Positions 4,072 through 62,280 of a DNA stretch of 64,000 nt are shown here, in pieces. Source of the DNA: Ceratodon purpureus. Lineage: Eukaryota; Streptophyta; Bryopsida; Pseudoditrichales; Ditrichaceae. The position numbers were made by a program, and so were the translations under genes. Where the stretch lies: the NCBI GenBank assembly GCA_014871385.1, contig CM026426.1:71249377-71313376 (forward strand), written 5' to 3'. Below the pieces are notes generated by a model. It made no database searches. It worked only from the letters and a program-made list of their open reading frames with translations, and was not told where the DNA came from. The first letter of the stretch is position 1, and every line of letters starts with the position of its first letter.

Positions 4072-4755
4072 TCAAGGAATAAACTCGTCTTCACTTTCAA
4101 GTGCACTGTGATCTATAAAACGACATCGTGTAGGATCGTATTTTGAACGAGGACTAGGAGATGCACTAGAACTATGCGATGAGTATTCACCTAAGGCTTG
4201 AGCTTGGTCTTCGATGTAACACGGAAGTCGCATATCTAATGAGGTAGGTGACCGGTAATACCTCCAATCCTTTGCATTCGTTAGTCGTCGACTGCCAAAA
4301 AAAACAAGTTGTTAGAAATAAAATGACCAGTTTCTGCATAAACATACCGACAAAGGATCAAGACATACAAAGATATATAGACAAAGAAATACAACTTACT
4401 CACATAGACTAACGGTTCCTTGTTCAGGTGGTAGGTCATCGTCGTCGTCTGAAAGTTCTTGAGTCTGAGGCACCTCCTTCGCCACTGCTTTTGATGACGA
4501 TGCCATTAGAGGTTGAAGCACCTGTTTGAAGATCTCCTTGTTGCTTTCTAACGCCAGGATTGCACGGTTGTATGCCTGGGCTGCCAAAATAGAAGCTCCT
4601 GCATACAGTCATATTAGCATGTTAGTAAAGAAGATGAAAAACATTAATCGGTTATATATTAAAACAAAGAAAGAAACAGTCCTCTGACCTGTGGGTGTAA
4701 GTACGCTATACCCATGTACTTTTCCAGTCACAGTCGTATTTTTCCAGGGTGCGGT
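4072..4755 (-). CDS. Three 3'-terminal exons of an unknown gene
   Basis: Three short exons join with matching phases: 4689-4755 (acceptor after AACCAAACAG, donor CAG/GTCAGA), 4400-4598 (acceptor TATGCAG, donor GA/GTAAGT) and 4072-4291 (acceptor TTTGGCAG, stop TGA at 4072-4074). The joined product runs TAPWKNTTVTGKVHGY..., then AQAYNRAILALESNKEIFKQ, an acidic SDDDDDLPPEQ, and a serine-rich tail ending EDEFIP. No lesion is visible. Upstream exons were not found. The helical YNRAILALESNKEIF segment followed by acidic and Ser-rich tails resembles transposon-borne or nuclear proteins, but I do not recognise the family. It may be host or transposon sequence. Confidence 0.5.
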
Positions 4756-11541: not shown

Positions 11542-11877
11542 CTGTCAAAGACCTAGATGGACTGGGTGCACTTAGAGAACTGCAAGTGCAAAACACTACT
11601 CTACTCACACAGCCACGGCACAGACACTTGTAAAAACAGGAACGTACTCAAACAACGAGACTTACAAGATAATGGAACCATACAAATCACCAATACTTAG
11701 AGTCTCAAAGAACAACAGAGTACAAATAGAAAAGGAGGGCAGTACCCCCACGTTCCTGTTCTAGAAACCACAATGGTGGAGAAGATACACATCAGAATGA
11801 CTACATACATCTTCTATGCACATCACTAAAATAAAAATACAAAAATCTCCAGCATTTTTGAAGCAGTAAGCAGGGCT
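11542..11877. other. Short gap between the two minus-strand U1 genes
   Basis: 336 bp between the charged protein's stop and the SUVR exon. It should contain the SUVR promoter and possibly its first exon. No clear signal could be assigned. Confidence 0.3.
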
Positions 11878-14800
11878 ACTCTTTAGTGCCCCTGCCCTTC
11901 TTGCCACTGTCTACCTGTCCCTTGGGATTTGACGCTTCTGCTTGGAGTTGTGCCCGCGTTTTAACCCTTGACTTGCCTGGTTCCGAAGCCTTTGCTTCGG
12001 CCACTTCACTTCCCTTCTCAATCTCTGGCTCTGCTTCCTCCTCATTGTCGACCTCCTTACTAAGCCGCTTCTTCCTGGACTTTGCACCCCGCTCAGTCTC
12101 CTCCTTGCCCTTACTCTGCTGAAGTTCCTCCTCGTCTTCATCTCTATCACCATTCCCCGCTGACTTCACCTTCGATTTTTCCCTCCCCTTCTTCTGCTCT
12201 GGCACCTTCTCAGTTTGAACTCCTTCACCTACCTCCACCTGCGTCTCCTTCACTCTGCCCTTGGCCTTCCCTTGCACGAGATCTTGCTCAGGGGCATACA
12301 AATAGTCACTTTCCTGCCCCTTGTCTTCAACCACCTCCTTCTCGTGTAATGTCGACTTAGTGCTCTTCTTATCCTTCTTCTTTCCACTTGACTTCTCTAG
12401 ATTGCAGCCGCGTGGCAGACAGTCAGAGTCTGTTTCTTCTACAATCCCCTCCAGCTCCAAAGCATTTGAAGCCCTGAAGAAGCTCGGTTGAGGTGTTGGT
12501 ATACTGTTACGAAGGTCTTCTTCAATCACCTCCTTTTCCTCTCCTAGTAGCATCAGTGCCTCGGCCGGTGGCGTGACAGACTTCTCAGAAGCTTTCTTCG
12601 TCTTTGGGGCCTCCTGAGGACTAACAAAGCGAGGATCGTAGGATTTTAAAACCGGCAATTTAACACCCTCGCTTACCTCCTCTACCTCTTCATCAGCGTC
12701 ACCTTGCACTCTAGTCCGTTCACCGGAATCCACGGACCTCTCACCATCTGAGTCACCATCCTCCTTAGAAGTGCTCCTTGTCGTACCTGAGCTTGAGGGC
12801 AGAACAGGGTCTTTCTGATTCTCTTCTTCTTCATCCGACTCCTCTTGTGAATCAATCTCAGGCTCCTTCAGATTTCCCCGCGGCCGTTGTCCCATCAGAC
12901 ATTCAAAGATGTCATCCTTCTTTTGACGCTTCCCCATGCTCTTCTTGTCTGCTCCAACTCTTTTCCGAGACTCCATCGCAAACCCCTCTAGATCGTTGCC
13001 TTCAAGAACCACCAAAGTTCTGGTCTTACCACCGACCTCACTTACCTTTGCCGAGTTACAAACAGCCTGACTTGCATCTCCCTCAATAAAGATTGCAGGA
13101 GTGATCTCTGATGTGGGCGGATTAAACAGTTGGGACGGCATCTCTGAAACATGCATAGAAAAGAATGTAAGGCATACAATGAAGACTTCACTCACAACTC
13201 AGTACAAGTAGCACTTCTAGTACATTCTAATTGTACAAAGAATACTTGAATATGTACATATAGTACTAAACACCTAAACTGTACCTGCACCTGTACTGCG
13301 CACAACATGGGGCCTGCAAATAAGTGGTCTAGTACTTCCTAATTGTAGAATGAGTACACCGAAGAGTACATATACTACACGCAACACTTGTACAGTATAT
13401 AATGTACTTCTAACTTCTACAATACACCTAATATAGATAAACCACATAGTAGATGTTCGTACAAACATTAATCATCTAACTCTGGGCATGTACACATTCT
13501 ACATTTGATATAAGCTATTGTACAACTATTGAAAACCAAGTACTTCAAAGTTTAACCATACTGAACGACTGTACACTACGTGCGTATGATAAGTACAATT
13601 TCAGAGACGTATGACTTACCTCAAGTGTACAAGGCGTACCAATAGACAAATGTTATGTAATCCCAGAACCAGATGCACATGCAGTACGTGAAGAGTAGTA
13701 CCTCTGATTAGTATCCTCAATCAGAAGGAATACTTGTCTACCAAGTAATGTACCACAAGTATCTAATCTAAGTACTTGAGGTTCACTGTCTTGCAAAACA
13801 ATTTGATGTTTTCATTTCTAAACAGAATTCAATTGTTAATGGAGTATTCTAACCCCAAATAACAATTTTTAATGTACGCAGATGTACATATCACACATTA
13901 TGAATGTACCATAATATAATTCTAAGATTTAGAGTACATCTTTTCTGGGTACAGTACATGGAAAATAGAGAGTTAGATGGATAAACCTTACATTATCTTT
14001 TTAGGAAGGGAATATAGATTCAGCATAGGAATACAAATACTCACCAGCAGTAGGAGATGTTGCCTTTGCGGCGTCCATTCACACTTGCAAAATCTTACTC
14101 CTCTCCTCGGCACAGCCAAGCATGCGGGCTCTATGTAGCATTTCAGCAGTTGGTTCCCCCCAACCAAAGCTTCGATGCCAGTCAGGGTGCACAAGAGTTT
14201 GGCAACCTCAGGCCGAGCACTTGTCACCATTCACAAAGAGAACTGACGCACAAAATGGATGGTACAAGTGCCTACACGAAGAGACGACAATGTCACTCAG
14301 TGGAAATGGAAAAAGACAGAGACAGCAAACCGTTATTTGTAAAATGTTATCTCCTTCTCTGTCGCATGAGCCACTGTCTTCAAGGTACATCACCGGTCGA
14401 GGCCAAAAAGTGCCCAAATTCTTCCCCCTCCTCAATTGTAAGAACTCCGACTTCAGAGACTCCAACTGCAGCTTGCGTCCTTCCAAGCTAGCGACCAGGT
14501 CAAGATAATTGGACTCTGCTACGTTAAACTCCCTCTCAAAATTCACAAGCCTCTCCTCCTCATCCGCAAGCTGTTCTTGAATGCCCTCCATCTTGATGAC
14601 TTCTCGGTCCACTACCTGCCCATCACCTCTCAGTTGCTCGATCCCCTTGCCTTTGTCCTCCAATTGCCTCTGGTAACTCTGAACTAGGCACTCGGATTGT
14701 GCCATGTCACTGCGGCATTTGTCTCGCATCGCTGCTGCGGCCTTCTCCTCTACCTTGCTCGCCGCTAACTCCAAGGACAAGATGGCCATCACCTCCTGAA

Positions 14801-15786
14801 TCTCTTGCCCCCGTTCTGACAGCGAAGCCTCTGTCCATCGACCACCTCGAGCGTCCCCTCCCTCTCTTTCAACACACACCCCAGAACCCATCCCAGAGTC
14901 GAAATCACCTGTTTCCCCTAACTTAGACCAACACCTCCTCTCAAAGACCTGATCACCCCCAAATCCTCCCTTCCTACCCTCTGACCATGCCCCTCAACCC
15001 TTCTGTGTCGGCGTTGAGCTTACACCAGGCTCCAACTTAATCTGCCGCCATTCCCTCCCCCGAACCTCCATGGGATTGTCCTCCTCGAAAGTCCTCCTCA
15101 GCGCCATGAGCTTCCCCCAAGTCTGTCTTGTAACGATTTCGCTGCCGCTTGTTAGTCTCAGCTCCAAAAGCGCACCAGTCGACGAAGCCCTTGCCCTTCT
15201 CGAACTCCATCGCCACACCCTCTACAAACCGTATCTTCAAGTATGGAGGAATCGACTCGGGGGGATGCTGATACAAAATAGGGTGAAGGTACTCGATTCT
15301 CTTCACAACTTGAGCCTCCTTGCAACTCCCCCACACATATCCTTGGCGCCCATTGTCTCCACACGCAACTCCAAACAGTTCCTTCATCAAGGAATGGCTC
15401 ACAGTATCCTTGCGTTATCGGTGGGGATTATCACCTTCGCTAGGCAGCTTCGGGTAAAGCCTACAGAAGTCTTCGCGACTAAGCTCCTGCGGCGGAGCTC
15501 TCAACCGAGCAATCTCCGCGTCCACGTCCTTTGCCCTTCTGTACGCCGGCTTCATCTTCGAATCTACCTTCGGCTTTGCTCTACGCGGTCCTTGTCTTCC
15601 CCTTCCTCCCGGCGTCTTGATCTTCCCTCCCTCTTCTTGGTCACTGTCCGACCCCGCCGCACCAAACTCTCTGCTCACCTCAGCACCATCATCCTCCATC
15701 GTCAAAGGCGGCGCCGAATCCCTCTTTGACCCCTTGCGCCCGCTTTGAACACTCCTTCACCGCGCTCCACCAATCCGACCCGCCAT
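11878..15786 (-). pseudogene. U1 coiled-coil / RING-like / charged protein (disrupted)
   Basis: Likely start at 15786. An N-terminal conserved module (LFGVACGDNGRQGYVW, EYLHPILYQH, IRFVEGVAMEFEKG) is followed by NKRQRNRY and VRGREWRQIKLEPG. A long coiled coil (about 14400-14800) precedes a RING-like site (CCLC, SSCRHLYHPFC), then HPDWHRSFGWGEP. The donor at 14045 (CTG/GTGAGT) leads across a GTAC-rich intron to an exon at 11878-13143 encoding a ~420-residue acidic/basic, Ser/Lys/Glu-rich tail ending RVKTRAQLQ...KKGRGTKE. Every module has a counterpart in U2 (51780-56032). Lesions: in-frame stops near 15759, 15412, 14206 and 14070, plus a frame shift near 15.1 kb. Several stops fit CGA-to-TGA. 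It may act as a chromatin or ubiquitin-related adaptor beside SUVR; that is inference. Confidence 0.65.
13144..14044 (-). repeat. GTAC-rich intron in the U1 coiled-coil gene
   Basis: I counted about 30 GTAC sites between 13195 and 13980, roughly ten times the random rate. Borders: donor GTGAGT at 14044 and acceptor ATGTTTCAG at 13144 (minus strand). The equivalent U2 intron (53327-54271) has the same character. Confidence 0.75.
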
Positions 15787-15979
15787 TGTAGACAGCGCAC
15801 TCTAAACCGTAAGACCTATCCAAACACCCCTTCCCCTTCACTTCGTCCTCTAAGTTACTCCTCCTCTACATTCAGAGACTGAATTCGCGAGACAGAGACA
15901 CGATCCGCCATAGCCGGGGAGAGAGACTCACGGGAGAGTAGCAAAAACAAACTCTACTTCCCGCGCGTAAACTGAGGAA

Positions 15980-16130
15980 GAAGATGACTACCGGCGGTCA
16001 CCAGTCAAAACCCCTGGTGACCTGGCGTCACCGGTCATAATCAATAGTGATTCAACTTAGAAACTGGCAGACCGTCTGTCACCGGTTAACACCATCCACA
16101 CACCCGCAACCACCAGTCAACCATTACTGT
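15980..16130. repeat. CACCGGT-type subterminal motifs at the right end of U1
   Basis: Clustered variants of GTCACCGGT and its complement: GGTCACCAGTC near 15990, CTGGTGACC and GCGTCACCGGTCA near 16014-16035, CTGTCACCGGTTAAC near 16077, CCACCAGTCAACC near 16110. U2 ends with the same kind of cluster. Subterminal repeats of this type are often transposase-binding sites; that role is inferred. Confidence 0.5.
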
Positions 16131-16159
16131 GAAGTGACACCTTATCTCTCTATGACCGG

Positions 16160-17820
16160 CCCAACCCGTAGGTATGAGTAATTGCAAAATCCATTGATTA
16201 ATTCTAAAATCTAGGAAATAGATAATTAAAGTATCTAATTTAGGTAGATCACATTCATTATCGAAATGTAGTGCCATCTTATATACATTTCAGACTATGA
16301 ATGTTTCTATTTACGTTAAATATATTTTTATTCTACATTCTCATGAATAATAAATGGTGTGCCTTTAACCTTGAACTTCAAATTCACATATTAGAGTTCA
16401 TCAAATTTAAAGGAAGTCTTTGATTTTGATATTTTATTTTAATAATCGTTAACTTGGATATTTTGACAAGTGAAGGAATATTACCAACAAGATTTGGTGT
16501 ATAAAACAAGTAGAGTGGATAAATAATGTTGCATTCTCATTCTCTTTATTAGCCCGTTTTAGTATGTAGCATTATCAATGGGTAGTCTTCTCTGCTTTGG
16601 TTGATTGAAGTTAATTCTATCAAATTTCTTAAATGAACTAATGAAGAAATGAAAAAACATTATAATATTGTACGTTTAATTTATTTGTATAAATTCAACA
16701 TGCTTCTAGAATAAATAGAGTTAAAATTTATTTTTTAAATAACATCGTACAAAAATATTAAATAATCCTTAGTCGCCAAGTCTAAACTTATAGCACAATT
16801 TGAATATTTTATACAATATATATCCAGTACATATGACACTTACATTTTAATTATTCGTTCAACCATATGAAATTTATATGGGTTTCCAAGTGACCTTATC
16901 CGTATGGTATATTACAACAATATATAATTTATGTGGACCCTAATAAATTTTAATATAGTGCCAAATCTAATTCTTTTTAAATAATAAATATAAACATATA
17001 TCTTGATTAATTTCCTCATGTATATCATGTTGATTGTTATTACAATTATTATTTGGTGATATTTATCATTATACATTGAACATATATTTAATTTTAAATC
17101 CTAAATATCTTTAATATTCTAAAATTCTAATACTTTATTATTAATTTTTTAATATCTTAGAATTATCCTAAACAAAATTCTAATTCTATTACAATGGATA
17201 TTAATATCATACCTCGTATTCTTATATATAGTCTCCATCTACCAATGCTTCAAATAGTTATGTTAAAACATTCAAAGAAATTCACAAAAAATATTTGAAA
17301 ATCATCTAATCCTCAACAATTTTAGGTTACAATAGACCTCTATATTATAATATAAGAATGATGTGTGTCTAAAAAAACGCACCAAAAAATATAACATATT
17401 CCTTTTTATCATAATACATGTATAATAGTAATTTGGAATGTTAGGATATGGTTCTAATGTAATTTCATCCAGCCGTCATCCACAAAAACGCACTAAAATC
17501 TAACAAAACCATACCTTTGAGCCTAATTAAAACAAACTACCGAATATTTTTTCTTCCACGAATGCCTTCTTAGGATGAAAAGTTGAGCAGCAGACTTTTC
17601 TTCCACCCTGAACCTAGGATTCCACCTCGGATCCTTGAGGGATCCGTTTGCCAAGTCACATGCCCCACCTACTATACTACCAGCAATAGTAAACCGCCTA
17701 TACGTCCACCCTGATGACCACGTGGCATGTCAGGGAACCCTCCATCGTCATTGGTGGATCTAGATTCACGCCCAGAGCCCCCACGATCTACATCTAACGG
17801 TTCAGATGCTGTGTGCGCTA
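16160..17820. other. AT-rich intergenic stretch
   Basis: About 1.7 kb without coding or recognised repeats, very AT-rich to about 17.55 kb. Base composition rises to average from 17.56 kb, where the left flank of unit M1 begins. Confidence 0.4.
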
Positions 17821-17911
17821 GTACTATAGCTACAATACTGTACTAATATGTACATCAAGTACAACAACATTTTGCCCAAAGTGTATGGGGTCTAGTGTAC
17901 TTACACCCCTG

Positions 17912-19078
17912 TTCCAACTGTTAGGTCACAAACGATACCATCCTCTAGACTAAGGCCACCTATGAAAAGCTTCATAAGCGACACTGCTTTTTCTTTTGGA
18001 CCCCTCCAGTAAATGTCAGATCCCTGTCGCTTAAGTGCCGTGTCTTCCGTTAAAATATTTGGAATGACATCGTCTCTGGCGAGGTTTATCTTCTTAAACT
18101 CTGGCGGAGTTGTAATAACAAATTCCTTGGGCTTCCATTCCATTGCCGTAGCATAGGAACGCACGAGCAGAATAGCCTTGGATTTCAGAGTCTGCACAGG
18201 GGTAAGTAGATGAAAATATTAGATATTAACTAAGGGTAAGAAGACCTCGTAGGTTCCGCCGTTGCCCGCATCGCTTTTGCGGTACCATACTTCCAAAGGC
18301 CTTGCCGGTACCGGCTGTGCCCTGCAAGCACCATCTTCTTTACTGCAGTTGCAAACGGCAGTCAAGCTGCAAGGGTGAAGAAACTGCTTGAAAGGCACCG
18401 CCAGTACCGGCGATTCCTTTGCGGCCTCATTCTGGCCACCGCAAGGGATGTTGATATGTCGACCACAGCAATGACCAGAGAGGGGCCTTAGAGGCATCGC
18501 CGGTACCGGCGCTGTCTGAGAAGCACTATCTTCTCCATGGCGTTGGTTGATTTTACCCACGCTGCATTGGAGAATGTAGTGCTCTCAGGCACAGCCAGTA
18601 CCGGCGATGCCTCTAAGGCCACTCTAGGCTTGGCCACGGAAGACGAGTGAGCCCCGCAAACCCGCAAGCAACAAGAGTATTGAAGCATAAAAGAAAATAA
18701 AAGAAATAAAGTACAGAATAGAATTGGTACCATCTTAGTGCCGTCCGAGGGGTGAGTCATATGAAGCGAGTTGTAGTTGAGCCACTCGCCCTTCACTTGG
18801 AGATTGTTGTTATTTAGAAAAGCGCCAACTTCCTTCCTGATCTTGCTGGAGTCAAGGTAGAAGAGAAGTAGAGCACCGTCATCGTGAAGGTACTGCCCGC
18901 AGAATCCAATTGCGTACTTAACAAAGTCAGCAACCTTACTGTTCCAACGTGGGACTTCTCCCGGGCGGGATGAAGCACCCGGAACAACTAAGTAATTGGG
19001 GTAATCGGCGATAACCAGGTCCACTGCTGGCTTCTCTTTCAACTTCCCAGCGAAGTAGAATTCCTTACTGGATCGAAC
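17912..19078 (-). CDS. DNA methyltransferase domain (N4/N6, motif IV before motif I)
   Basis: Exon 18731-19078 (116 codons, phase 0) has the catalytic-region motif AVDLVIADYPN, followed by a strand-helix pattern (DDGALLLFYLD) expected of motifs V-VI. Exon ~17912-18191 has KEKAVSLMKLFI and CDLTVGTGV, the AdoMet-binding motif I with its preceding motif X helix. This IV-then-I order defines beta-class amino-methyltransferases such as bacterial N4-cytosine and N6-adenine enzymes. Two oddities: the usual DPPY/W is DYPN, so activity is doubtful or altered, and the frame stops directly after motif I (GTGV then TAA) or splices at GTGTAAGT to an exon I cannot find. I am fairly sure of the family, not of the target base. 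Confidence 0.65.
18304..18605. repeat. Four GGTACC-centred palindromes in M1 intron 7
   Basis: Cores at 18304 (GCCGGTACCGGC), 18400 (GCCAGTACCGGC), 18499 (GCCGGTACCGGC) and 18594 (GCCAGTACCGGC), spaced 96, 99 and 95 bp. The intron is 18192-18730. Confidence 0.85.
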
Positions 19079-19762
19079 CTGAAAAAACAAAAGGACAATT
19101 TAGAAGAAAAATATGCAAAGAAATAATAATTATAATAAATTGATCAATTGAATGGTGTCTCACCCTTTTAAGAAACGACACCATGGCTTTGAATGAGGGA
19201 GGAAACTGGCCGGTCTTGTCTCTGACTTGAACCATGGAGTGAAACGATTCGTTAAGAATCAGAACTTGAAAAAGTGGCGCTGCTGCGGTGACAGCCTGGC
19301 TTGCTGACATTGCTTTACCTGATGGAGGTGTCAACTCCTCAGAGTCATCCTTTGAAGATGGTCCGAGCAGCAATTTCTTCCTTGGTCTGTTGGGGGTGCC
19401 GGCACTCGGATGTGACTCTGCCGGTCCGGTCTCGACCTTCTTGTTGGCTGCGGCTATGGTCGCTGGAATGTCCTCCTCCTCTTTGGCTTGGTCCTTAACC
19501 TCATCCTCGGCCTTCCTCTTATGATTCCTTCTTGCTTTCGCTCCGCCCTTTCCCCTTGAAGATCCAACTACCGGAGGAGTAGGAGAAGCTTGAGAAGCTG
19601 CAATTGGAGGAGCCTTTAGTATCTTGGCAAGTTCGGGCTGAATGGAGTCCCTTAGTGCGACGTCAAAAGCCAGACATTTCTTCGGAGGGCAATCATGTAC
19701 CACCCACATCTTTTATAATGATGTGGTTCCCATGCCTTCAGAATCGCAGCTGTGTACATGCC

Positions 19763-20212
19763 ATTAGGGGAAAAATCAGGTCTCCAACGGGCCTTGTAAG
19801 ACAGCCTGGATTAGGTGAGCTTCCTGCCCGCTGACACTTCTCTTCGAAATCTCATTGGTCGATATCCTGCCCGCTGACAACAAAATTCGCCTCGCTGACA
19901 GCAGGATTCGCTGACAACACGATTTGCTGACAACAGGATCCGGTACTGTCCAATGGGGTGATAGCAGTGGGCACACGGTCGGTGACAGTGTCATTACTGC
20001 TTATATTGTCCAATGGGAGGGTGGGGTGGGGTAGGGTGGGGAAGGGAAGCGATTGGGTGGACCCCCCAAATGCCAACTGCTGTCACTGCTGGCAGCATTT
20101 GGCGACCTGCTGGCACAGTTGGTGCCAACAGGTAAAGTGCACGGGCATGGCAAAAATTTTGGCACAGAAAACATGGAAAAGGCCCGTTGGAGACCCCTAA
20201 CTTCTCCTAATG
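19763..20212. mobile_element. MITE copy 1, inserted in exon 5 of the M1 gene
   Basis: 450 bp with ~33-bp imperfect terminal inverted repeats, starting CATTAGG and sharing GGTCTCCAACGGGCC near both ends. It interrupts the M1 frame between ...VDSAES and MYTAAILKAW. It is close to identical to copy 2 (52294-52728) and carries a G-rich GGGTGGGGTGGGG tract and TGCTGGCA hairpin. No convincing target-site duplication, so the superfamily is unknown. No coding capacity. Confidence 0.85.
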
Positions 20213-20609
20213 ATTCGGCGCTGTCAACATCCAAGTAATTCGGGAAGAAGGGGGGAACCTTAGATATCGCCTTTCTAGGCAAAAGAATGTACTTGAAGTA
20301 CCGATACAAGATCCTTCGTACCGCGGGTTGAAAATTCGGCTGCTGGTCTGACTTCTTGTTCTTATGGACAAGGTCTCCATTCAACTCTCTAAAGAAAGCC
20401 ATATCCCTGAGCTGACATCTCATTGCCTCAACATAGTCAAAGATGTTGTCGATCGGGTCTCCATTATCGGGTGCGTAGTCGACCTGCACCCCGAGATCTG
20501 TAATCACTCCCTTGAAAATCTCCTCAACCTCAATCGCCAACTGCAACACAGTAATTGAGAATTAGTATCTTTTGAAATCAACATGGACGAACCGCTAACC
20601 CTGCCAATT

Positions 20610-21493
20610 CAACCGCCGATACCGGCGATGAGTTTGAAGCACCTTCGCGGTCACAAAGAAGGCTGCCAATATATCTTCTCATTGACTGTAGAGGTCCTTC
20701 GAAGGCACCGCCGGTACCGGCGGTGCTTTCAGGGCGCCCGGAAAGTCAACGAGCAGGTAAAATTGACAATCGCCTCCTTGTCTGCCCGGGCGCTCGGAAA
20801 GCACCGCCGATACCGGCGGTGCCTCTGAAGAACACTTCCAGCCAATGAGATGGCAACATGGACTGCCTTCGCATTGACTGTTTGGGTCCTTCGAATGCAT
20901 CGCCGGTACTGGCGGTGCTTTTGGACCGCCCGGGAAGTCAACGAGCCGTTCGTCAACGTTACCTGCACGTTGACTATTCAGGCGCCCTGAAAGCACCGTC
21001 GGTACCGGCGGTGCCTTCAAAGGACCTTTATAGTCAAAGAAAAGGCTAATTGGCAGCCTTCTCATTGACGGGAAGGGTTCTTCAAAGGCACCGTCGGTAC
21101 CGGCGTTGCTTTCAGAGCACCCGGGAAGACAACGAGCAGGTTGCTGTGACGACCTGCTCGATGACTGACGGGGAGCTCTGAAAGCACCGCCGGTACCGGC
21201 GGTGCCATCGAAGGACCCTAACAGTCACAGACAAGGCTGAGTGGACAGCCTTTTCTTTGACTGTGAAGGTGCTTCGAAGGTATAGCCGATAGAGGCGGTG
21301 CTTTCAGAGCTCCCCGTCAGTCAAAGAGATGGCTATACATACAGCCTTCGGAGTGACTCCTATAATGGTTCAAAGGCACTGCCGGTACCGGCGGTGCTCT
21401 CAGAGATCCTATGCTGCCAACAAGCAGGTTCTCTTTGTGACCTGCTCGTTGACTACTTTAATGCTCTGAAAGCTCCGCCGGTGCCGGCAGTGC
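20610..21493. repeat. Ten-unit palindrome array with 95-96-bp pitch in M1 intron 4
   Basis: Units start at about 20610, 20705, 20801, 20897, 20993, 21088, 21184, 21280, 21376 and 21472. The core is GCCGGTACCGGC; units at 20705 and 21184 are perfect 22-bp palindromes, while those at 20610, 20801, 20897, 20993, 21088, 21376 and 21472 carry one or a few changes and 21280 is degenerate. The ~74-bp spacers alternate between two types. Type A has TCAACGAGCAGG near one side and its complement CCTGCTCGTTGA near the other; type B has AGTCAAAGA...GGCT and its complement. So the true period is about 192 bp and each spacer is itself an imperfect hairpin. The array lies wholly inside the intron 20541-21578. 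Confidence 0.9.
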
Positions 21494-22383
21494 CTTCAAA
21501 CCATCATAGTAGTCACATAGATGGCAGGAACTAAGAGAAAAATGCCAGAAACCGACAAGATAACTGAAAGGTACTCACTTGAGCCCACCATGTAGCCTTA
21601 TGTAGCCATGGCAGAAACACCGCGTCTGAGAATCCACCTTTCGGAAACTTGTGGGCAACCCTGATTGCCTCCGAGGAGTTCCACCTCTGGAGCCACTTCA
21701 CCATCATTGATGCTGGCATGGCAGAGGTTGCCAACATCCACAGCTTCTCCTGCTGCATCTCAGGCTTATCATCTGCCTTCTCATAGTGCAGCTTAATTTC
21801 TTCAAGGAATTTGGAGGAGTGCTTTGGATCTGCGATAGGTAACATCTTCCTCAATTCCCCGGCTAATTTGTCTTCTACCCTATGGACCGCCTTTGTGACC
21901 CACTCATCTGCTAAACGTTCGGTCCACTGGCTCGGGTTAGGATTAGCCAACTGATACCGCTGTTGGGCTGCGTGAGCTGCCTCTCCGATCTCGTGCTGTA
22001 GTTTAATTAAAAAATTAGTTAATATCAATTGAAACGACCAAATAAAGCGTGATTTCAAAGCTAGTCAATATGGGGTTTTAAAGCTACGCATCTGATGCAA
22101 AACAACGTTCAGGGCTTCAACTGACAGAGTATACCAGGTCCGATTTTTTCCAGACTGTTTTTTCTTTGCAGCATCGATCACAGACCGCGAAACAAGCCCT
22201 TCAAAATACTCCACTGGCTCAGGAGCTATGTTCTGTATCCGGTATAGCCTATGCACAAGGTTTGTAGAGACATGCGATTTCTGGTTCCTCCTACATATTC
22301 ACAGCAATGGAATATTAACAATTCATATCCCAGCAAATAGTATACTAACCATTATCGGATAAATCAAATTATTTGGAACTTAC

Positions 22384-22933
22384 CAGTTCACTTCGTGAAG
22401 GGCTGTGAGCACCGATGGAATTTCACCCTTGGGGTCAAGTACAACGCTCTCAACTCGGTAATGCCAGTTTATGTCACCAGCATGATACTGCTCAATGATC
22501 GGCAACCAAGCTTGCAACCTGTGGTTTCCATCCCAAACCATAAACATCTTTTTTGAAAAAACCTTTAGATCATCGTTTGCAAGCAGGGTTGCTTCGAAAT
22601 CCTCATTCACCTCCTTCCATTTGTTTGACCAGGATTCTTTGATTGCAGGTGTGACCTCAGATGTGTGTCCGTGGTTATCCTCCAGAGCCATGTACAAATA
22701 GCCGTTGCCCTCCATGTAGCCATCTCTGACGAAGTGAACCTGTAGATTTGATACATCGTTCTTCAAGTACGGTCTTACCACGGGCAACGAGATCATACGG
22801 CAAAGGGGAATGAAGAGCCGGCCTTTGTTCTTCGGTTGCCATCTGAATTTCTCCAACCTCGAAGCGGTGTTGACCGTCTGGTTCGCAACTAAGTCATAGA
22901 GCATCTAGTTGACCTCGCGCTCTGTCAATGGAA
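22384..22933 (-). CDS. ParB/sulfiredoxin-like domain exon of M1
   Basis: Encodes RLFIPLCRMISLPVVRPYL, then MEGNGYLYMAL, and the key KMFMVWDGNHRLQAWLP followed by WHYRVESVVLDPKG. In ParB-like domains the DGxHRLxA segment is the conserved box II that forms the nucleotide/DNA-binding loop. The paralogue in M2 (59109-59580) keeps FDIPLCRM, VMFFVCDGNHRRQAWW and WHYLMDSILLGTKG, so the domain is under recognisable constraint. The exon has an acceptor (TTGTGCAG) and donor (CTG/GTAAGT) in phase, with one TAG nine codons in. Confidence 0.65.
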
Positions 22934-23008
22934 CTGCACAATAGAGATAAAATTAGTCTGATGTTGTAGATGTAAGGTTAGACGCACAACAGACACCATT
23001 GCAAAGGT

Positions 23009-23520
23009 GCCAATACCGGCATTGTTCCTTAGCAACACCTTGAATTCTCAGCAGCGAATTAAACAGAGTGCCGAGAATGTAATGCCGGTACCGGCGACGT
23101 ATACTTTAAGGCCCCAGGTGTGGGCAGTTCAACGGTGCAACAGCTTCAGTGCAGAGAAGCAGCGCAACCCAACAGCCCTAAAACCCAGAAACTCAGCAGT
23201 CAAGCGGCCCAAGATGCATCCCCGATACCCTCAAAGAGCAACCCTAAACCATTGGGCTCTTCCTAGTCACTGTCTAAGGATGGGCGCCGGTACCGGCGAC
23301 AGCTTAGCGCACACATCGTGCCCACGAAGAAAACACTTGCAAAAATGGGCAGGGTAAGGGATTACCTGAGAGGCGCCATGGAAGACAGAATCAGTTGTTG
23401 CTCGGAAATCGATGCCGGTACCGGCGTCGCCTTCTAGGGCACCCTCGCTGCTCACTACATGCGCATTGTTGTGCAAGTGCAATGCGCGAGGTCGCCATAG
23501 AAGGCACCGCCGGTACCGGC
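23009..23520. repeat. Five GGTACC-centred palindromes in M1 intron 1
   Basis: Cores at 23009 (GCCAATACCGGC), 23084, 23286, 23414 and 23509 (the last four GCCGGTACCGGC). Spacings are 75, 202, 128 and 95 bp. The intron is 22934-23585. The 75- and ~95-bp spacings reappear in M2. Confidence 0.85.
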
Positions 23521-23760
23521 ATCGGTTTCAGTGAACCAACTGACTCTGGCGTCGCTGGCAACGACATTAAACCCAGATGACATACCTTCAGGTAGAGCAT
23601 CCTCCTTCTCGCCTTGCGTTGCTTCTTCATTGTCGCCGTCTCCTAGCGCCTCAGTATCCTCCATCCTAACCTCGTCGTCGTCCTGAGGGTCGCGATATAG
23701 TTGTCCACTCCCCGACTGTGGCTCCTTTGAGCTGCGGCTAGCTTCTTCCTCCTCTTCCAT

Positions 23761-24394: not shown

Positions 24395-24661
24395 CTCTGG
24401 CGAATAGTTCGGGGTTTCTTGAAGTTCAGTTGTTTTCTTCACGATATTTCTAGCACCCCTCGTTAACTGCTTTGTAATATGTTCTGCTACAACAACTAAC
24501 GGTGTCCCCGCAGCAGACGAGTAATCTAACACCTTTGCAAGTCCTGCAGTTTCCAAAGACTCGGTTCTCTTCTTCTTGTCCCTCGCGATCCGACTAGCCA
24601 TCAACGCTCTTTTCGTACTAAAATGACTTCCTCTTCTTCGTTTCTTGGCCTTCAATGGGGC
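24395..24661 (-). CDS. Single exon of an unknown basic protein
   Basis: An 89-codon open stretch bounded by a good acceptor (GATATGCAG) at 24662 and donor (CCAGAG/GTATGT) at 24394. It encodes a basic segment (LKAKKRRRGSHFSTKR, ARDKKKR) then a helical part (LVVVAEHITKQLTRGARNIVKK). Neighbouring exons were not found. It lies between M1 and the MULE and could belong to either or be a host exon. Confidence 0.35.
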
Positions 24662-25199
24662 CTGCATATCAAGAACCTCTATGCGAAAGCATCCTACTAT
24701 CCTACACAATAAGGGCTCACTGGTCTTGATACAATTGCTTACTTCTCCGTGAGACGAGGAAGATGTCTATGCCACTGCACTATGGTAGTAGTAGGGCCCA
24801 TGCCAATTCAATGCAGTATTGATCGTGTAGATCGTGGGCAGAGGTAGCATAAGTCTCATTCTATTTGTGAAACAAAAAAACAAAAGACAGTACAAGAACT
24901 AGATTTTAGTAATCTCCTTGACGGCATGTTTCTTAAAATAAAAAAGTCTTTATTAAATAGAATGTCCACCATGAATTATAACGACTCATAAAAGATCAGT
25001 TAGCATCTGGCAGCTTCATATCTGTTTACAGCTAAAATTGGTCTTGCTTTACATCTATGAATGAGAAATTAGCGTCGTTTAGAAGTAACGAATGGTTAGA
25101 GTCTCCTGGATAAATAGAGCTACAACAATGAACTATTCCTCTCAAGTTATACATCTACCTCTAGTGGCATTCTTGTAACATCAACACCTACAGCAAAGA
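24662..25199. other. Spacer before the MULE transposase
   Basis: No coding recognised. The left end of the MULE should lie here; I could not find its terminal inverted repeat. Confidence 0.3.
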
Positions 25200-28100
25200 A
25201 TGACTCATCTTCCTGCAGACATAGTGTTAGGCATGGCCGTGCTCAGAGCACATGGTGTTGATATTCCACTTACAGTACGTGTAGATGAGGATGGCTTGGC
25301 ACTTGTAACGGCACAACGCCTTAGCCTCATATTTCACTTCAAAGAGGAGACTGTTAGTTTAGAGGAAGAGATTTATGATGATGAGACAAATGAGATTACA
25401 CATACGCTAGATCAGGTTTCTGAGAAAGATGATGACGATAACAGGTTCTAGAACCTTTATCCTGGAAGATACAGAGTTTATGGTCTTACAGAGTTCCAGT
25501 TGCAGGCGTCTACTGAGATTCTCACTCCTCGTAGATCATCTACTGTTCAGAATCCTCTGCCTCGTGATGTGAAGGTAAAGGTAGAGCCTGGCTTGGACAC
25601 TCCTGATGTAACACCAGTCATCTCCCTCTCCTCAGATGAAGAGACTAGTCCCCTGAAGGCATCACCTGCTTTGCCTAGAGAGACTATAGTATCCAGCACG
25701 CCAGCTACACTACCAGACAAATGTGCCAGTACCTCCAAGACATCAAAGGAGGAGACTATCAATGTACTGCCACTCATTAGGATACTTGCAGAGAGACCTG
25801 GGAGGAAAAATATTCTGAAGAGAATAGATTTCTCCTCAGTTAGACAGGAGAAGGTGGAGTACTTACTTGCAGTCTTCAACAACAATGTGATCTTCGAGCT
25901 CCCTTCAGTTGGTGACGGCGCTAACAAGACGCAAGCGAAGGCTATGAAGGGGATGGACAAGCGTTACGACGGCCACGTTTGGACGAAGACAATCACTACC
26001 AACATCACTAACGAGTTCGGCCTGTCGTTCCGCTACTCCACCTGCGTTGGTAGGCTGCGCTGCGTCAACAAAGAATGTGAATTTCTCAACCGTCGACCTC
26101 GAATTGTTGAGGTAAACGAGACTGAGTTTGAGTGTAGTACCCATCAAGCTTTTACAGTGAATCAGCCAACTCCAGCGGATGCAACACTTGTCTGCAACGT
26201 ATGTAAAGAACCTCCTGCATGTATCGCTACATGCGGAGCCAAGATTTATTACGTTCTAGGTGAATCCAACCAGACTAGGGCATGTATCCATCAAGGAACA
26301 CATAATCATCCAGTGAAGGTTGGAGACTATAGAGACACTAAGGAAGAGATCAATAGCTTGATTGAAGAGCAGGTGGAGAATACTCCCCGGGCTACGAAGA
26401 GCGCCGTTGTGTTGGAGGCCAGAAAGATTCTGATTGGGAACTACCTCCTACAGCCTGAGGACGCACCACCAAAGAAGCTGAGCATGGAGGAGCTCATTCC
26501 TGTACTTGACCGGTGCAAGGATATGGCTTCCCCAAATATCCGCAACAAGGTGATGACGTTCAAGCGATTGAGAAGGTACGGTGTCATGGACGCCATCACC
26601 AAACTCCATGGGATCAGTTTGTGGGCCTTCGTCCAGGAGAACAAGTTTCCGGGCCAGGGAGCTGAGAGAGATAAGGTCTTCGTCTTCAAGATGTCAGAAG
26701 TTGGGCCAGGTAGTGGTGTCGACTTGGTCACCAGAATGCAACCTGGTGGGGATCTTGAAAATGCTTGGATTATGTTCGACCACGTAAAGCGTGTACAAGA
26801 CTGGTCCACCATGGCTTGCCATGTATATGACCCCACTTACTGCCGCGTCATGACGATTGCAAGTTGCGACATGCAATCCGAGGACACTGAGGCCTAGCTG
26901 GTCTTTTGGAAGAACCTCAACATCGTTATGGAGAGGAATGGCGTTGCAGCGCCAAACTTCAAGGGCTTCATGGCGGACAAAGCACAAGCGAATTGGAATG
27001 CGGTGCGTATCCTTTACGGAAATGGAAACAAGGAAGATAAAATGGAGGATCGGGAAAGGTCCTGCTTGTTCCACTGGACCCAGAACATGGTCCAGTATAC
27101 AGACAAGTATTTCCCCGAAGAGCTCCGGGAACAGCACAAGAAGATGTGCAACCAATATAGGACAGCAACGACTTTGACAGAGGCGGCCACTCTTTATCAT
27201 GCCTTGCAGGCATGGTGGATATCTACTGGGGTCGTGGGAGAGAAGGGCCTAACCAATCTAGGGACTTGGCTCGCATTCTAGCACCACCGCTACCGTCAGT
27301 GGGGTGGATTCATGTCTGCAGTATGATGCTACTAAACCCTTCTACTATACTTGTTTTCTGTTTAGGTAAACTTAATTGACATCACTTCTATAATTGATTC
27401 TAATTACTGTAATTGCTTAAACTGCAGAAATTTACTGAAGAAGAACTCACAGAGATGCCGACCTGTAACCTCGCCGAAACAGTTCACAATAAGTGGTTAC
27501 AAGCATCAGGTAACAACGGCAGCGACCTCTATGTTGCGACTCTGGACGATTACGTTCGAGGCTTTCTGCACGTTGTAAACTACTACTAGTTCCTGAAAGG
27601 TGACGTAGGCGGAACTGGACCTTCGAAGAAGAAACTCAAGCTTCAAATGGCGGAACGCAGGGCGAAGAAAACAGGAAATCCTGTAGTCCTTGAAGATCCC
27701 ATGCTTGATATGCCTAGAGCAGATGAGTTCTGCACCCGTCAGCCTGTCATGCCGGGTCAAACCCGTCAGCCTGTCAAACCTCGCTTCGTTGCCGATTCCA
27801 GCAGAAGCTGACCGCTACCCTGGTAAGCGAGATGGGAAGATGGTCAAACGCACAGCAACTCGACCTAACCCGGCGCAGCGACTCTCCATGGGCTCCTCTC
27901 AGTCCCTCAAGGCTCGCCTCCGTTCCATCACCATGATACCTCATCCAAGCCATGGTTGCATCATCGGGCTGGATTCGGGCGTTGCTCCAAACATCACACA
28001 GTACCACATCATTATCACCTCTTACCCGAGTTGCACTTGTCCAGCATTCAGGAAGACGATGACTAAGTTTCGAGGTAAGATACAGTTTTCATACTGTAAA

Positions 28101-28241
28101 CATATTTATTACATCCTTTTAAAGGTCTGCAACCGTAATCTGGAGGCCGAGCTTTTCATCCGTGCGCCTACCTTTAGTTTCAACGAAGTCAAGCTAGTCC
28201 TAGAGAACGGAATCTTGACACACCCCTTGGCCAAAAAATAG
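25200..28241 (+). pseudogene. Mutator-like (MULE) transposase with FLYWCH/WRKY-type and SWIM zinc fingers
   Basis: The frame is open from 25200, with a Ser/Pro-rich N-terminus, then a FLYWCH/WRKY-GCM1-like finger (CVGRLRCVNKECEFL ... CIHQGTHNHPV, a C2H2/HNH pattern). The MULE core follows: WSTMACHVYDPTYCRV, MTIASCDMQSEDTEA, NFKGFMADKAQANWNAVR, SCLFHWTQNM and HYRQWGG. An intron ends near 27427 (AAACTGCAG). Exon 2 has NLAETVHNKWLQASG and a SWIM finger, CTCPAF...YCKH, near 28030-28110. The candidate acidic residues lie in the CDMQSED and FMAD blocks. Disrupted by in-frame TAGs at 25449, 26895 and 27279, a further TAG in exon 2 and a frame change near 27.8 kb. This MULE type is familiar from moss and lycophyte genomes. 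TIRs not found. Confidence 0.8.
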
Positions 28242-28559: not shown

Positions 28560-29000
28560 CTACTCCCTGCCTACAGGACAAGCTACATTGACATTCATTG
28601 TTCGTTCCCCAATTGGCACTTGTCGTAGGCGGGGACGTTTCAACAATGGAATAGCTTCACTCTTTCCACGTAATGCCTCCCTAGAATAAGTCCCCGGTGG
28701 AATCTTCCTGACCTTGGAGTATGCATGAGGTGCCAAAGGGACAACCGGTTCCTCCAGGGGAACTACGAGAACACTTGGCTCTTCTACAGCCACTAGGTCT
28801 CCTATCACATCTACTTTTACTTCCACACCATCATTTCCAGAATGCCCTTCATTGCACCCTTTTAACTCCTCTTCCTCCTCGACCTCCACATACGGATGAA
28901 ATGGGCCAACGACATCACCAAGTGAGATAGTGGTTTCCCTGGCAACTTCCATATCACAACACGCTCTTCTTGGAACTTGATTCAAGAAGAGCACGAACAA
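28560..29000 (-). CDS. Hypothetical acidic protein
   Basis: A 146-codon frame; an internal ATG at 28951 gives MEVARETTISLG and an acidic run (VEVEEEEELKG), then a Pro/Val-rich segment and a basic end (PLLKRPRLRQVPIGER). It resembles low-complexity tails of transposon-borne nuclear proteins. There is no homologue in the window, and the start and reality are uncertain. Confidence 0.3.
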   Translation of the reverse strand: MFVLFLNQVPRRACCDMEVARETTISLGDVVGPFHPYVEVEEEEELKGCNEGHSGNDGVEVKVDVIGDLVAVEEPSVLVVPLEEPVVPLAPHAYSKVRKIPPGTYSREALRGKSEAIPLLKRPRLRQVPIGERTMNVNVACPVGRE

Positions 29001-30218
<1,218 letters not shown>

Positions 30219-33200
30219 TCCACGGTTATAGGGTCATAATTATTACCAAAAATAGTAATATTCTCAGAATATTTGAATCTGCTAATAATAGTTTTTATTA
30301 TTAGTAATAATATTACTGTTTTTAGATTTAGACCTTCATATTCTGCTCGTCGCCCTCCAAATATCCGCTCGCCGCTCGCCGCACGCATACAAGCTACCTC
30401 CGAGCGGAGTCCAAGCTCCAAAAAATGGTCTTCCAAAAAATTCACGTGAGTACAAAATTGTGTATTGGAAAGTAGTGGAGGTCCAAATCCTCCCGTCATA
30501 CAAGAGTTTCTCGTAAATGATCTGTTGGACCTTCCCATCTCCAGACAGACTTCTAGGACATATTGCACTACAATCCTAAGAATGTCATTGGCACCGAGAC
30601 GGTGTAGTCCTCTAGACCGCGCATCTGTGTGTGCGCGACCCACTTCAAGATGTCCTCGCAATCACCGTCTTGCATTGCTTTCAATGCTGCTGTAGATACC
30701 TCATATGCGAATCCCATGTCCCTCTTTGCGCCGTCAGGTACACCAAACAGAGCATGCCCAATGCAACAAGCATTGCGGAAGTTTTTTCAAAACGTTCAAT
30801 ATCTTGAGCCACCTCCGAAGCGTCGGTATATTAGTGGCTCTACTCATCGGGTCCACTAGTCCATACTCCCCCCTGGCCAAGATGTTGTAGAAGCAAAGCA
30901 AGCATGCTCTTGTGAGGGTTACAATGTAAGTCGTCTTAGAACTGAGCGCATTGATAACAACCTTTGCCTCCTCCATAGTATGCTCCCATTGCAGAGGTGG
31001 CATCCTCTGAGACAGCAAGCTGTTACTTGTACACGTGTGGTATAGTGGATGCCACTCACACACGCATGTCTTCACGTCCACCGCCTTCGTCTTGTCCTAC
31101 CAACATACTTACTAGCGTACCCACTCCTCCCTTTCTCCACGAACACACTTCTACATATCGGCCTCTCTCACCCGATACTCTTTAACTAAAAAGAGGTTCT
31201 CAAAATACCTATGCGTCTCCAAGCATCCACTTTGTGCCTTGACGTCCATTGCATCCTTGCCCTCGAGCCATGAAATAGTGTCATTGACCTTGCCGACATC
31301 CTCGATCGTGTATCTGTCAGATTGTTGCAAAAGAGGAGCACATGTAAGTACACAAAGAAGTCCACCACGGGAGACATCAAATCAAACAAGACGATAGTAC
31401 CATCATCCCTATAGAGAAGTTAAACTTTCACGTGACGCTTGAGACGAGAGAATTTGCCTTCGGTCTAGCATATTGCATCTTCAAAGCCGTCCCCATTCCA
31501 AAAGGCCAAGACCTTCTCCACCATTTCATGTAGTGTCGAAGACAAGCACATCCTTGTCTCGTTCCTCATTAGGCCGCACACCATGAGAAGGATGGCAAGA
31601 CTGGTTCTAGAAAGAAGCGTTGGTGCTAGAACTGTGTCTTCTCGTATGGCTGTCTCGGTGTCCCGTGTGAATTGCAAAAGAACTTCCTCGCGCTGCATGT
31701 GGAGACGGTCGCTTTCCGAGACAACTTCCTCTGCTCCCGGACCATCACCCCCAATTTCCGCAAAAACTCCCTCCGCCGCCATGGCATTACTACCGGAGTT
31801 GGATGGCTGGAAGGGTTTCCTTTTGTAGACCCTGTAGTCCACCTTCTCCTTCTTCTCTGATTCCCCGTCAACATGAGGGGGCAGCTCCCGCTTTTTCTTG
31901 TTGCCGTAGTCCCCTCCCTCAGCAGCCCTCGTTGACCTTGAGGCAATATTGTCTCGCAAAGTCTCCACCTTCAGCTCCTCTATAGCCTTGTCGTCTTGAC
32001 CCGACGCCATGTCCCACTCCTTCCCCTCACTTTGGCCGCTTTGATCTATGTCTCACACCAAGAGTGTAATCTCTTCCTTGCCCTTTCCAGAGCCTTTTGC
32101 ATTGTCCACCTACCCTCTAATACTTCGATGGGCGTCTCCTGGTGTGTCTCGGATCGAGACATGGAAACTTGAGAGAGATCCGTCTTGGCTCACACCGTCT
32201 TGGAGGCTGCAAGACTCTAATCTTGCTCGCAAGTTCAACCAAGGCAACACCATGTCTAGTCTTGTCCTCTTTACCTGCAGGGTTGATTTGTTGGGGCTTT
32301 CGATTGGCCTTCTCACGCAGCTTCTTCGACTTGTGAAAAATTACATCCTTGAAGTCGTCGTCATCATTGCCGTCTCAATCTACCCCGAGCAAGACCGGCT
32401 CCAGAAGAGGCTTCCGCTTCACCTCTTGCTTCGGAGTTGACAGCAGTGGTTGACCATTAGAATGCTTTGCCCACCAATCTGCAATTTGCTCCTTTGGAGT
32501 TCTCTTGTCCCGTTCAACCAGAAGGTTCTGCTAATTTTGCTCCAATGCGTTGAAGAAGAACTTCAACGCCTCATGATCTAAGCAACAATGGTTGTTGAGT
32601 CAATGCTTCTGCATTAAGCGTCTACAATCCCTCGGACAAAGCACACAATTATAAAACTTCTTGTGGTTGAAGAACACCGGAGGTGTGTGGCATTTGTCAA
32701 GCATTTGACGAGCATTCAAGTCCATTCATCCTCATGCCATGTATCCAAGTATTGATTCTTGTATATGGTCATTCGCTCGTGCACAATTTTGTCTCGCCAC
32801 AAAATCCTTAGTGCCTTCAAATCAGCGTCGCTAAATATCTGTTGTACCATTCTGCCCTACAAATTTGAACTCCTTGTAAAATGACATTGTTATGGTCGGT
32901 TTAAGGATTGACCTACGGCCAGATGATAATCCTAACTATTGCGAGACCTAAATTGAGCCATATTCAAGACCTTCAATACATAATAACATTAAGAATAACG
33001 TTTTCAACGTTGTAAATTAAGTCTTGTTGGATCCTTTAACAAGATAGAATGATAATAAACGTTAGACATTACTATATAATTGAAAGCCCACTGCGAGCCC
33101 CGGAGGAAGAGACCCTAATCGAGATCGGCGAGACATGTTATGAGTAACTTTACTTTACAACCTAAAACATTGATGACATCCACGCATAAATGCGGTAGAC

Positions 33201-58798: not shown

Positions 58799-59580
58799 CT
58801 GGTAGATAAAACTTGTCAACACGTTCATAGGTAAAGTATACCAAGTACTGTGCTTAGTCTTTTTGCACCGTTTCAAATCTAAAGCGGATAATATTTCCTA
58901 AAATTGCTCAAATGGCATAAGTCCATATTTCTGAACCCTGAAAAGGGTGTGGACATCATTGGTCTTTACATGAGAGTCTTCTGTATGCCTATTAGAAAAA
59001 ACCTAAGAATTAGTAAATTCTAAACCAAAATCATGTAATAATGGGAGAAATAGTCATGACTTAAATTTGAATGAAGTAGTTAACTCACTTGTTAATATTA
59101 TTCATGACCTACATAACTAAGCCAATTCTGCCCTTAGTGCCCAAAAGAATGGAGTCCATCAGATAATGCCATGACTCATCAGACTTGTGTAGGCACTCTA
59201 CATGGTTCCACCATGCTTGACGGCGATGATTTCCATCACATACAAAGAACATCACATTTGTTAAACCTGCTAACTCAAGGACAAGCGAGAAAGGTGTTAA
59301 ACTTTTCATTCTTCTCATTCCAGATTGGTCCCCACCTAGCCTTATCAGCTTCTGACACCTCCTTTGTCTTTCCACCTTCATCTGTAGTTGTCACATAGAA
59401 AACCGATGCACCCTCATGATACCCGTGTGCAAACTCCTCCTCAAGTTTAGAGAGGTCACATTGCATCATCAGACGCACCATCTGCATAGCCTGCATTCTA
59501 CATAAAGGAATGTCAAATCTTGATGAACTAAATGGCTTCATTTGGAGACTTGAGATACTAGCAACTAAGTCTAGTTTATG
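58799..59580 (-). pseudogene. M2: partial copy of the ParB-like gene (exons 2 and 3)
   Basis: Exon 2 (about 59109-59580) encodes RFDIPLCRMQAMQMVRLM, then after a frame change VMFFVCDGNHRRQAWW and WHYLMDSILLGTKG. Exon 3 (58799-58980; acceptor GCATACAG, donor CAG/GTAAGT) encodes SHVKTNDVHTLFRVQK and STWYTLPMNVL, matching M1 SHVSTNLVHRLYRIQN and RTWYTLSVEAL. An acidic stretch (EEEENSDEEDDAFIGDEDE) just upstream resembles M1 exon 1. Stops near 59606 and 58897. No methyltransferase exons follow; the sequence passes straight to the flank shared with M1 (58560-58710), so M2 is internally deleted. Confidence 0.65.
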
Positions 59581-62119: not shown

Positions 62120-62280
62120 CATTAGGGGAAGATTGGGGTCTCCAACGGGCCTTTGGTCGGAATCTGTGCCTGAAAATTTGGCCATGCCCGTGCACTTTAC
62201 CTGCTGGCACCAATGGTGCCAGCACGTCGCCAAAAGGTCGCCAAATCGGCGTTCAGGGGGTCCAGCTAGCAGTCGCGCAT
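62120..62280. mobile_element. Terminus of a larger element related to the MITEs
   Basis: Starts CATTAGGGGAAGATTGGGG, then GTCTCCAACGGGCC, and for about 110 bp matches the reverse complement of the right end of MITE copies 1 and 2 (GCCCGTGCACTTTACCTGCT, GGTGCCAGCA). After ~62230 the sequence is new, so this is the end of a different, longer element continuing right. Confidence 0.65.

Follow-up and report, generated by a model that had tools for sequence, protein, structure and literature searches.

A stretch of 64,000 nucleotides of the Ceratodon purpureus genome (contig C6, positions 71249377-71313376; the whole stretch is called the window below) carries on its minus strand a decayed accessory gene of a large and abundant family of cut-and-paste DNA transposons of this moss. 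The gene appears to join a putative ParB-like segment, recognised by its DGNHR motif, with a DNA-methyltransferase-like domain, and its introns, as in most of the closely related copies examined, hold arrays of exact 12-bp palindromes. A sequence-only reading of the window had described a spliced plant gene joining the two domains; the transposon and the palindrome arrays, which were absent from it, are the most interesting part. On comparison of the copies, the encoded protein is given about an even chance of being a self-targeted anti-silencing or self-marking factor, similar in role to the VANC proteins of Arabidopsis transposons. Searches covered the 362-Mb assembly (151 contigs), in which C6, which we take to be a sex chromosome, measures 110.5 Mb.

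Exons were delimited by comparison with an autosomal relative, C8a (loci L012-L014 joined), in which the accessory gene comprises about ten exons and about 1,175 codons (by the exon limits set in this analysis). The minus-strand exons encoding DGNHRLQAW, DLVIADYPN and CDLTVGTG, on which the sequence-only reading was built, are present and matched by C8a; the first exon (MQAP) and the last methyltransferase exon had been missed (Table 1). That both segments belong to one spliced gene, as had been claimed, is suggested by the order and strand of the ParB-like and methyltransferase exons, shared in C8a, C1a, C6c, C6d and C2a and likewise in divergent copies in C6b and C1a, and by matching splice sites between them, checked in C8a. 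Amino acid identity between the window exons and C8a is 45-78% (43% past the insert of the long middle exon, where the reading crosses a change of frame). In the window the gene is dead, because its ParB-like exon contains an in-frame TAG (22907-22905), its long middle exon a 458-bp insert resembling a miniature inverted-repeat transposable element (MITE; 19762-20219) together with a shift of frame at about 19.71 kb, and because a nested 13.2-kb DNA transposon separates the last methyltransferase exon from the preceding one. The second copy announced for the window exists as a relative of the ParB-like exons, in a degenerate state.

The C8a element is an 18.4-kb DNA transposon bounded by terminal inverted repeats (TIRs) of ~66 bp (4838-4904 and 23182-23247) and by a 10-bp target duplication, CTTCTCAAAG. 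C10a has its own exact 10-bp duplication, GACTCTCCAC, so that target duplications were found in both copies (2/2) with both ends in hand. The right end is common to C8a, C1a, C7a and C10a; C5a provided a left end only, and C1a and C7a right ends only. These ends were determined in clade A elements, the family having two further clades, B and C; no right end of the window element was found within the window. In C8a the transposase is encoded on the strand opposite to the ParB-like/methyltransferase gene, in a frame of 726 aa and a subsequent SWIM-like exon that contains a stop; the degenerate window transposase has a Zn-binding N-terminal part, a DDE-like region with C-x2-H and a SWIM-like C-terminal part (names given by eye). 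Mutator-like elements (MULEs) are defined by TIRs and a target duplication of 8-11 bp, and the repeats and duplications of the two complete copies are of this kind. Since the Pfam MULE model (PF10551) has no match to its transposase, the element is designated, from its sequence features, as MULE-like only; the C8a transposase core had no match in Pfam or NCBIfam.

An ordinary duplicated host gene with ParB and methyltransferase domains would likewise be spliced and have conserved exons, but the TIRs, the 10-bp target duplications, the co-travelling transposase and the hundreds of dispersed copies make such an origin extremely improbable. For the two copies with both ends, a host gene family is refuted by their TIRs, target duplications and transposase. 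The mobile or repeated unit suspected in the sequence-only reading was thus found, as a transposon accessory gene and not as a gene of the plant.

Genome-wide, the best 150 places per query were scored, out of 1610 candidates for clade A, 1888 for clade B and 1815 for clade C. With the clade A query (ParB-like exon) these 150 were all at least 72% identical (E-value at most 3.8e-24), and with the clade B query (WEGNHRLSAW) all at least 78% identical; with the clade C query, 28 of the best 150 reached at least 79%, the rest being 50-58% identical or partial. With a similarity of about 40% between clades A and B, their lists are disjoint, and the ParB-like exon is encoded at at least 300 places. 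Clade C was defined by a third ParB-like/methyltransferase gene (42% identical), adjoining a 37%-identical transposase and found at the CTCGGATCCGAG region upstream in C1a. Displaced GTTAAC sites suggest that this clade C element is nested within one of clade A (L009:1-8700, i.e. C1:14860610-14869309). Over the ParB-like segment, eight of the best 150 clade C places show 100% identity, which suggests that the clade was recently active.

Substitution patterns show strong purifying selection on the ParB-like exon. Among 66 pairs, synonymous divergence (dS) was below saturation in only 6, with nonsynonymous divergence (dN) of 0.04-0.70, and differences at codon positions 1/2/3 numbered 19/6/97 between L039 and L041 (183 codons), 27/11/87 between L034 and L042 and 54/28/108 between C8a and L034.

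Exact 12-bp palindromes were counted in each element region. The word GCCGGTACCGGC has 9 exact sites in the window element, 18 in C6b, 17 in C6c, 14 in C6d and 4 in C2a, and the word GCCGTTAACGGC has 26 in C8a, 18 in C1a, 23 in C7a, 15 in C10a and 19 in C5a (9 to 26 copies in nine of the ten element regions, 4 in the tenth). In two further subfamilies of clade A, GCCGTTAACGGC occurs 16 and 18 times. A third word, CTCGGATCCGAG, has 16 sites in the clade C copy upstream in C1a, where the array was spotted before the ParB-like/methyltransferase gene was found. All 26 sites of C8a are intronic, 3 belonging to the transposase gene and 23 to the accessory gene, where they occupy three introns, and in most clade A copies examined the palindromes lie mainly in these same three introns. 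None of the three words occurs in the five flank stretches (both sides of C8a; right side of C1a, C7a and C10a) or in the rest of the window.

Genome counts against those of the reversed words were 1460 versus 6 for GCCGTTAACGGC, 293 versus 78 for GCCGGTACCGGC and 1882 versus 8 for CTCGGATCCGAG. Compared with 20 Markov-1 sequences, palindromes were in excess in the C8a element (28 versus a mean of 4.75, maximum 10), the window element (12 versus 2.65, maximum 6) and clade C (11 versus 1.75, maximum 3); the corresponding values were 2 versus 2.5 in the C8a flanks, 2 versus 3.25 in the nested insert and 9 versus 7.35 in the rest of the window. Among the 25 palindrome clusters listed (split by hand, several coming from one element, and set against a partial exon list), 3/6 of the GTTAAC type and 14/19 of the GGTACC type had a listed ParB-like exon at a distance of at most 7 kb, where 0.2-0.7% would be expected at random. 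Two CTCGGATCCGAG clusters chosen for having no listed exon nearby both held exon-5 fragments (35% identity). The four intron arrays of C8a share the core, an identity that follows by construction from picking sites by the core; the array consensuses 21-48 bp away from it are 25-38% identical in 5/6 array pairs and 59% in one. The exactly conserved stretch measures 12 bp and in many cases about 22 bp.

The palindromes might serve the transposase or a DNA structure (hairpins, fold-back, replication), with no connection to the ParB-like protein. Some have very long arms, reaching 43 bp on each side, an array of C8a is found in the transposase intron, half of the clade C sites fall outside the recognised gene, and in L057 (3116-5469) an exon-5 fragment is duplicated in an inversion around a palindrome array, giving a fold-back-like derivative. 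The C8a and window arrays, however, are internal and not terminal and lie mostly in the ParB-methyltransferase gene, exact cores stand within otherwise unlike repeat units, and the two clade B copies examined have no palindromes although clade B is widespread. This alternative is considered quite unlikely.

As regards the C-terminal part, the N6_N4_Mtase model (PF01555) matched four of four exon-joined sequences (E-values 2.1e-4, 1.1e-5, 4.6e-4 and 1.8e-5), all under the curated Pfam cut-off of 26.7 bits. A search of PDB sequences retrieved DpnA with an E-value of 5.7e-5 when an alignment was used as query and of 1.1e-3 with a single sequence. Against 17 bacterial fusions of ParB_N with a DNA methylase (17 of loci L146-L165), the profile scored 38.7 (E-value 1.7e-4) over motifs X and I, compared with a shuffle maximum of 23.3 (n=40). 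The joined exons present the permuted order IV ... X ... I of beta-class enzymes, with the S-adenosylmethionine (SAM) motif. Judged by these sequence comparisons, the C-terminal part is classified as a DNA-methyltransferase-like domain of the permuted beta class, with prokaryotic N4/N6 DNA methylases as relatives. Motif IV reads D-L-[IV]-[IV]-x-[DE]-x-x-[DEN] in 13/13 copies; the catalytic [DNS]PP[YFW] is found in 0/13 of these motif IV sequences, D, E or N replacing the aromatic residue.

An active N4C or N6A methyltransferase with the palindrome cores GTTAAC, GGTACC and GGATCC as its substrate, marking or protecting its element in this way, would account for the methylase homology and the kept motif I, and enzymes of this sort recognise 6-bp palindromes such as these cores; the sites of HpaI, KpnI and BamHI are of this type. 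Self-modification has also been proposed for similar algal proteins (PMC12477816). Against this, DPP[YFW] is absent from all 13 motif IV sequences, and the 12 bp, often ~22 bp, of exact conservation exceed a 6-bp methylase site. Self-methylation is considered unlikely, if somewhat plausible, and recruitment or shielding would be likelier than methylation because the catalytic motif is altered.

The N-terminal assignment was examined in the same manner. G-N-H-R is invariant in 9/9 diverse rows of the DGNHR exon alignment, and a wider pattern I-x-L ... R ... G ... V ... GxxRxxA was discerned by eye. The sequence-only reading had proposed a ParBc domain; ParB_N (PF02195) matched none of the exons scanned and gave nothing at E ≤ 1 over the whole genome, and no significant ParB match to the DGNHR exon was found in Pfam, PHROGs, NCBIfam or PDB sequences. 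DndB matched 2/18 members (best E-value 0.11). Comparison with 80 canonical ParB sequences gave a profile E-value of 0.23, inside the shuffle range, and a canonical ParB was rejected, these sequences having no profile similarity. Against the 17 bacterial ParB-methylase fusions the DGNHR profile scored 23.0 (E-value 0.027), above all 40 shuffles (maximum 22.1), in an alignment of only 7 columns placed on another GNHRL within the bacterial linker. In four of these fusions (L146, L147, L149 and L163) a second GNHRL/GDHRL motif (e.g. VLGNHRLMCGDS) stands directly before the methylase and could be taken for the ParB box. Scans of viral contigs for short exact patterns, which reach near relatives only, gave 0 relatives for each of three queries, namely the alignments of the ParB-like and methyltransferase parts and the frame from clade C; a viral origin was rejected within that reach.

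The pairing of ParB with methylases in prokaryotes, to which the sequence-only reading had referred, is real: 17 of 20 non-canonical ParB_N loci examined hold DPPY in the same frame as an upstream GxxRxxA box. The moss gene shares with these fusions a ParB-like part followed by an N4/N6 methylase, and the region of motifs X and I aligns. The prokaryotic proteins, in contrast, keep DPPY and match Pfam ParB_N, for which the moss exon has no match.

In the mechanism proposed, the protein would recognise the palindromes in the introns of its own element, and by this recognition only its own transposon family would be marked. Since motif I is kept and no copy seen has DPP[YFW], the protein would most likely act in the manner of VANC, as an anti-silencing or chromatin factor with sequence specificity, and its methyltransferase fold would serve to bind SAM or DNA or to carry out an altered methylation. 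VANC21 binds the motif YAGTATTAY, of which VANDAL21 has arrays in its introns and non-coding parts (PMC5735166; PMC10398659), and VANC binding motifs form tandem repeats, introns included, that change between related elements (PMC5735166). The moss and the Arabidopsis systems thus share a transposon accessory gene, a family-specific short motif in dense non-coding repeats including introns, and motif switching; arrays of the VANC type were found in clade A and in one clade C copy, and not in the two clade B copies. VANC, however, contains DUF1985 and neither ParB nor methyltransferase, its motif YAGTATTAY is non-palindromic, and its binding and demethylation have been demonstrated, whereas the moss protein is known from its sequence.

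Several observations weigh against this VANC-like role. It is deduced from sequence. The ParB label derives from the DGNHR motif, and the ParB fold is putative; the methylase match is absent for single exons (the earlier methylase assignment holds for joined exons only) and for the clade C frame when its last exon is left off, and the loss of DPPY could indicate a decayed, purely structural domain. On the side of the element, PF10551 has no match at the C8a transposase, with 93 matches elsewhere among the best 150 of 384 candidates. As to the arrays, the reversed control of GCCGGTACCGGC is itself common (78), and 8/25 of the listed clusters are away from any listed ParB-like exon (the exon list being partial). 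No repeated 12-bp palindrome was found in the two copies of the widespread clade B or in the region of the second relative of the window; L052, one clade A subfamily, has only the imperfect form GCCGGCACCGGC (10 sites); the 4 sites of C2a are not among the commonest words there (rank 148); and 8/16 of the CTCGGATCCGAG sites of the clade C copy are downstream of the last recognised exon and not intronic. On the ParB-like tree, 2 changes are required for the GTTAAC type and 2 for the GGTACC type, and sister groups (window type and C8a type) carry different palindromes. A simple congruence between this tree and palindrome type is not supported.

The sequence-only reading knew of no description of such a gene in plants, and as a kind it is not new: transposon-borne ParB plus methyltransferase genes are already published for algae (PMC12477816), the one relevant article, judged by title, that literature searches on ParB and DNA methylases in mosses, algae and transposons brought up. 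It describes Sola1-1_Ec32 of Ectocarpus, a 21.5-kb transposon with a ParB-like and N4C/N6A methyltransferase gene (1104 aa) opposite the transposase, and cites green and red algal cases. The features shared with Sola1-1_Ec32, namely both parts in one gene, a strand opposite to the transposase and a DNA transposon of ~20 kb, are found in C8a, its ParB part being putative. The moss element differs by its host and by a transposase of DDE/SWIM layout with 10-bp duplications instead of Sola1; the intron palindrome arrays and a motif IV other than DPP[YFW], both established on the moss side of the comparison, are further candidate differences. New here are the moss host, the MULE-like element, the palindrome arrays and the motif IV change. 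Palindrome arrays beside such genes found no mention in the literature consulted on ParB and DNA methyltransferase in transposons or algae, a literature gathered by no search aimed at palindromes or parS. For the green and red algal cases, the references given in PMC12477816 are Iyer et al. 2011 and Petroll et al. 2025. Carey et al. 2021 reportedly presented the Lanisha elements of Ceratodon purpureus as an undescribed cut-and-paste superfamily abundant on the sex chromosomes of this species; a literature search for these elements gave 0 matches, and their identity with the moss element is a lead only.

Table 1. Features of the gene, its palindrome arrays and its carrier element in the window (identities are amino acid identities to C8a unless stated)
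Feature	Position	Strand	Remarks
First coding exon, conserved, MQAPLKAKKRRRG... (MQAP)	~24667..24395	-	45% to C8a exon 1; GT donor at end
Acidic second exon, approximate limits	23760..23587	-	open frame and donor; C8a counterpart 11986-12124
ParB-like exon, VWDGNHRLQAW	22934..22383	-	75%; alignments A3, A4; constraint among relatives
Exon after the ParB-like exon, RRNQKSHVSTNLVH...LHQ	22292..22092	-	78%
Middle exon, HEIGEAAHAAQQRYQ...	21995..21578	-	76%
Long middle exon, interrupted in window	20540..19163	-	one open exon in C8a, L013:5844-6809
Methyltransferase exon, DLVIADYPN at motif IV position (not DPPY)	19078..18732	-	52%
Methyltransferase exon, WRGPKEK (motif X region) and first half of motif I, CDLTVGTG	18193..17909	-	56%; joined exons homologous in relatives
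Last methyltransferase exon, rest of motif I (GASILAAQAYNRAILALE)	4599..4399	-	51% to C8a exon 9
GCCGGTACCGGC array, intron before ParB-like exon	23009..23520	-	4 exact sites and 1 with mismatches
GCCGGTACCGGC array, intron after exon 21995..21578	20615..21488	-	9 sites with at most 2 mismatches, 3 exact; spacing ~96 bp
GCCGGTACCGGC array, intron between two methyltransferase exons	18304..18605	-	4 sites, 2 exact
Degenerate transposase gene	~25198..28241	+	82% over residues 7-715 of C8a frame
Left TIR of window element, degenerate	30343..30401	.	92% over 39 bp to C8a TIR
Second, degenerate relative of ParB-like exons, VCDGNHRRQAW	59571..58838	-	36-40% identical; in-frame stops

Other features accompany these elements. 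A 353-aa frame lies near the right end of clade A elements (L014:657-1718; window ~524-1570), is 84-99.7% identical in six other copies, takes the opposite orientation in the window-type subfamily and has a weak, non-significant Pfam match. A small conserved frame lies near the left end (L012:5932-6390; window 28572-28952; 64% identical), and an (AT)60 microsatellite at 29485-29605 occupies the left non-coding part of the window element. The nested 13.2-kb transposon (4693-17908), which sits in the intron between methyltransferase exons, has a 4-bp duplication ACAG and the ends GGGTGTAAGTAC/GTACTTACACCC. A repeated open reading frame resembling, by eye, a pre-SET/SET histone methyltransferase, possibly another transposon-borne chromatin enzyme, occurs at 10760-11102 (inside the nested transposon), 50690-51031 and L012:832-1931. 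The MITE-like repeat at 19762-20219 has a second copy at 52294-52735 (92.6% identical to each other) and a partial one at 62118-62234.

A broader interpretation, which falls short of an even chance and is put forward tentatively, is that of a transposon-encoded partition-like system in a land plant, in which a ParB-like/methyltransferase protein would read parS-like intron palindrome arrays, with recognition diversified between subfamilies, and would keep only its own family open, having evolved independently of VANC. To our knowledge, very few transposon-encoded factors whose action is confined to their own family have been characterised in detail. The palindromes provide a concrete predicted target for the protein and, if they are indeed its target, the element may be a selfish element with its own chromatin switch. 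This would be a second, unrelated type of protein whose target code is readable, with three palindrome words, many open copies and synonymous divergence at saturation, and would open a route to how selfish DNA evolves private epigenetic switches and to why bacterial-type DNA methylases recur in the transposons of algae and mosses.

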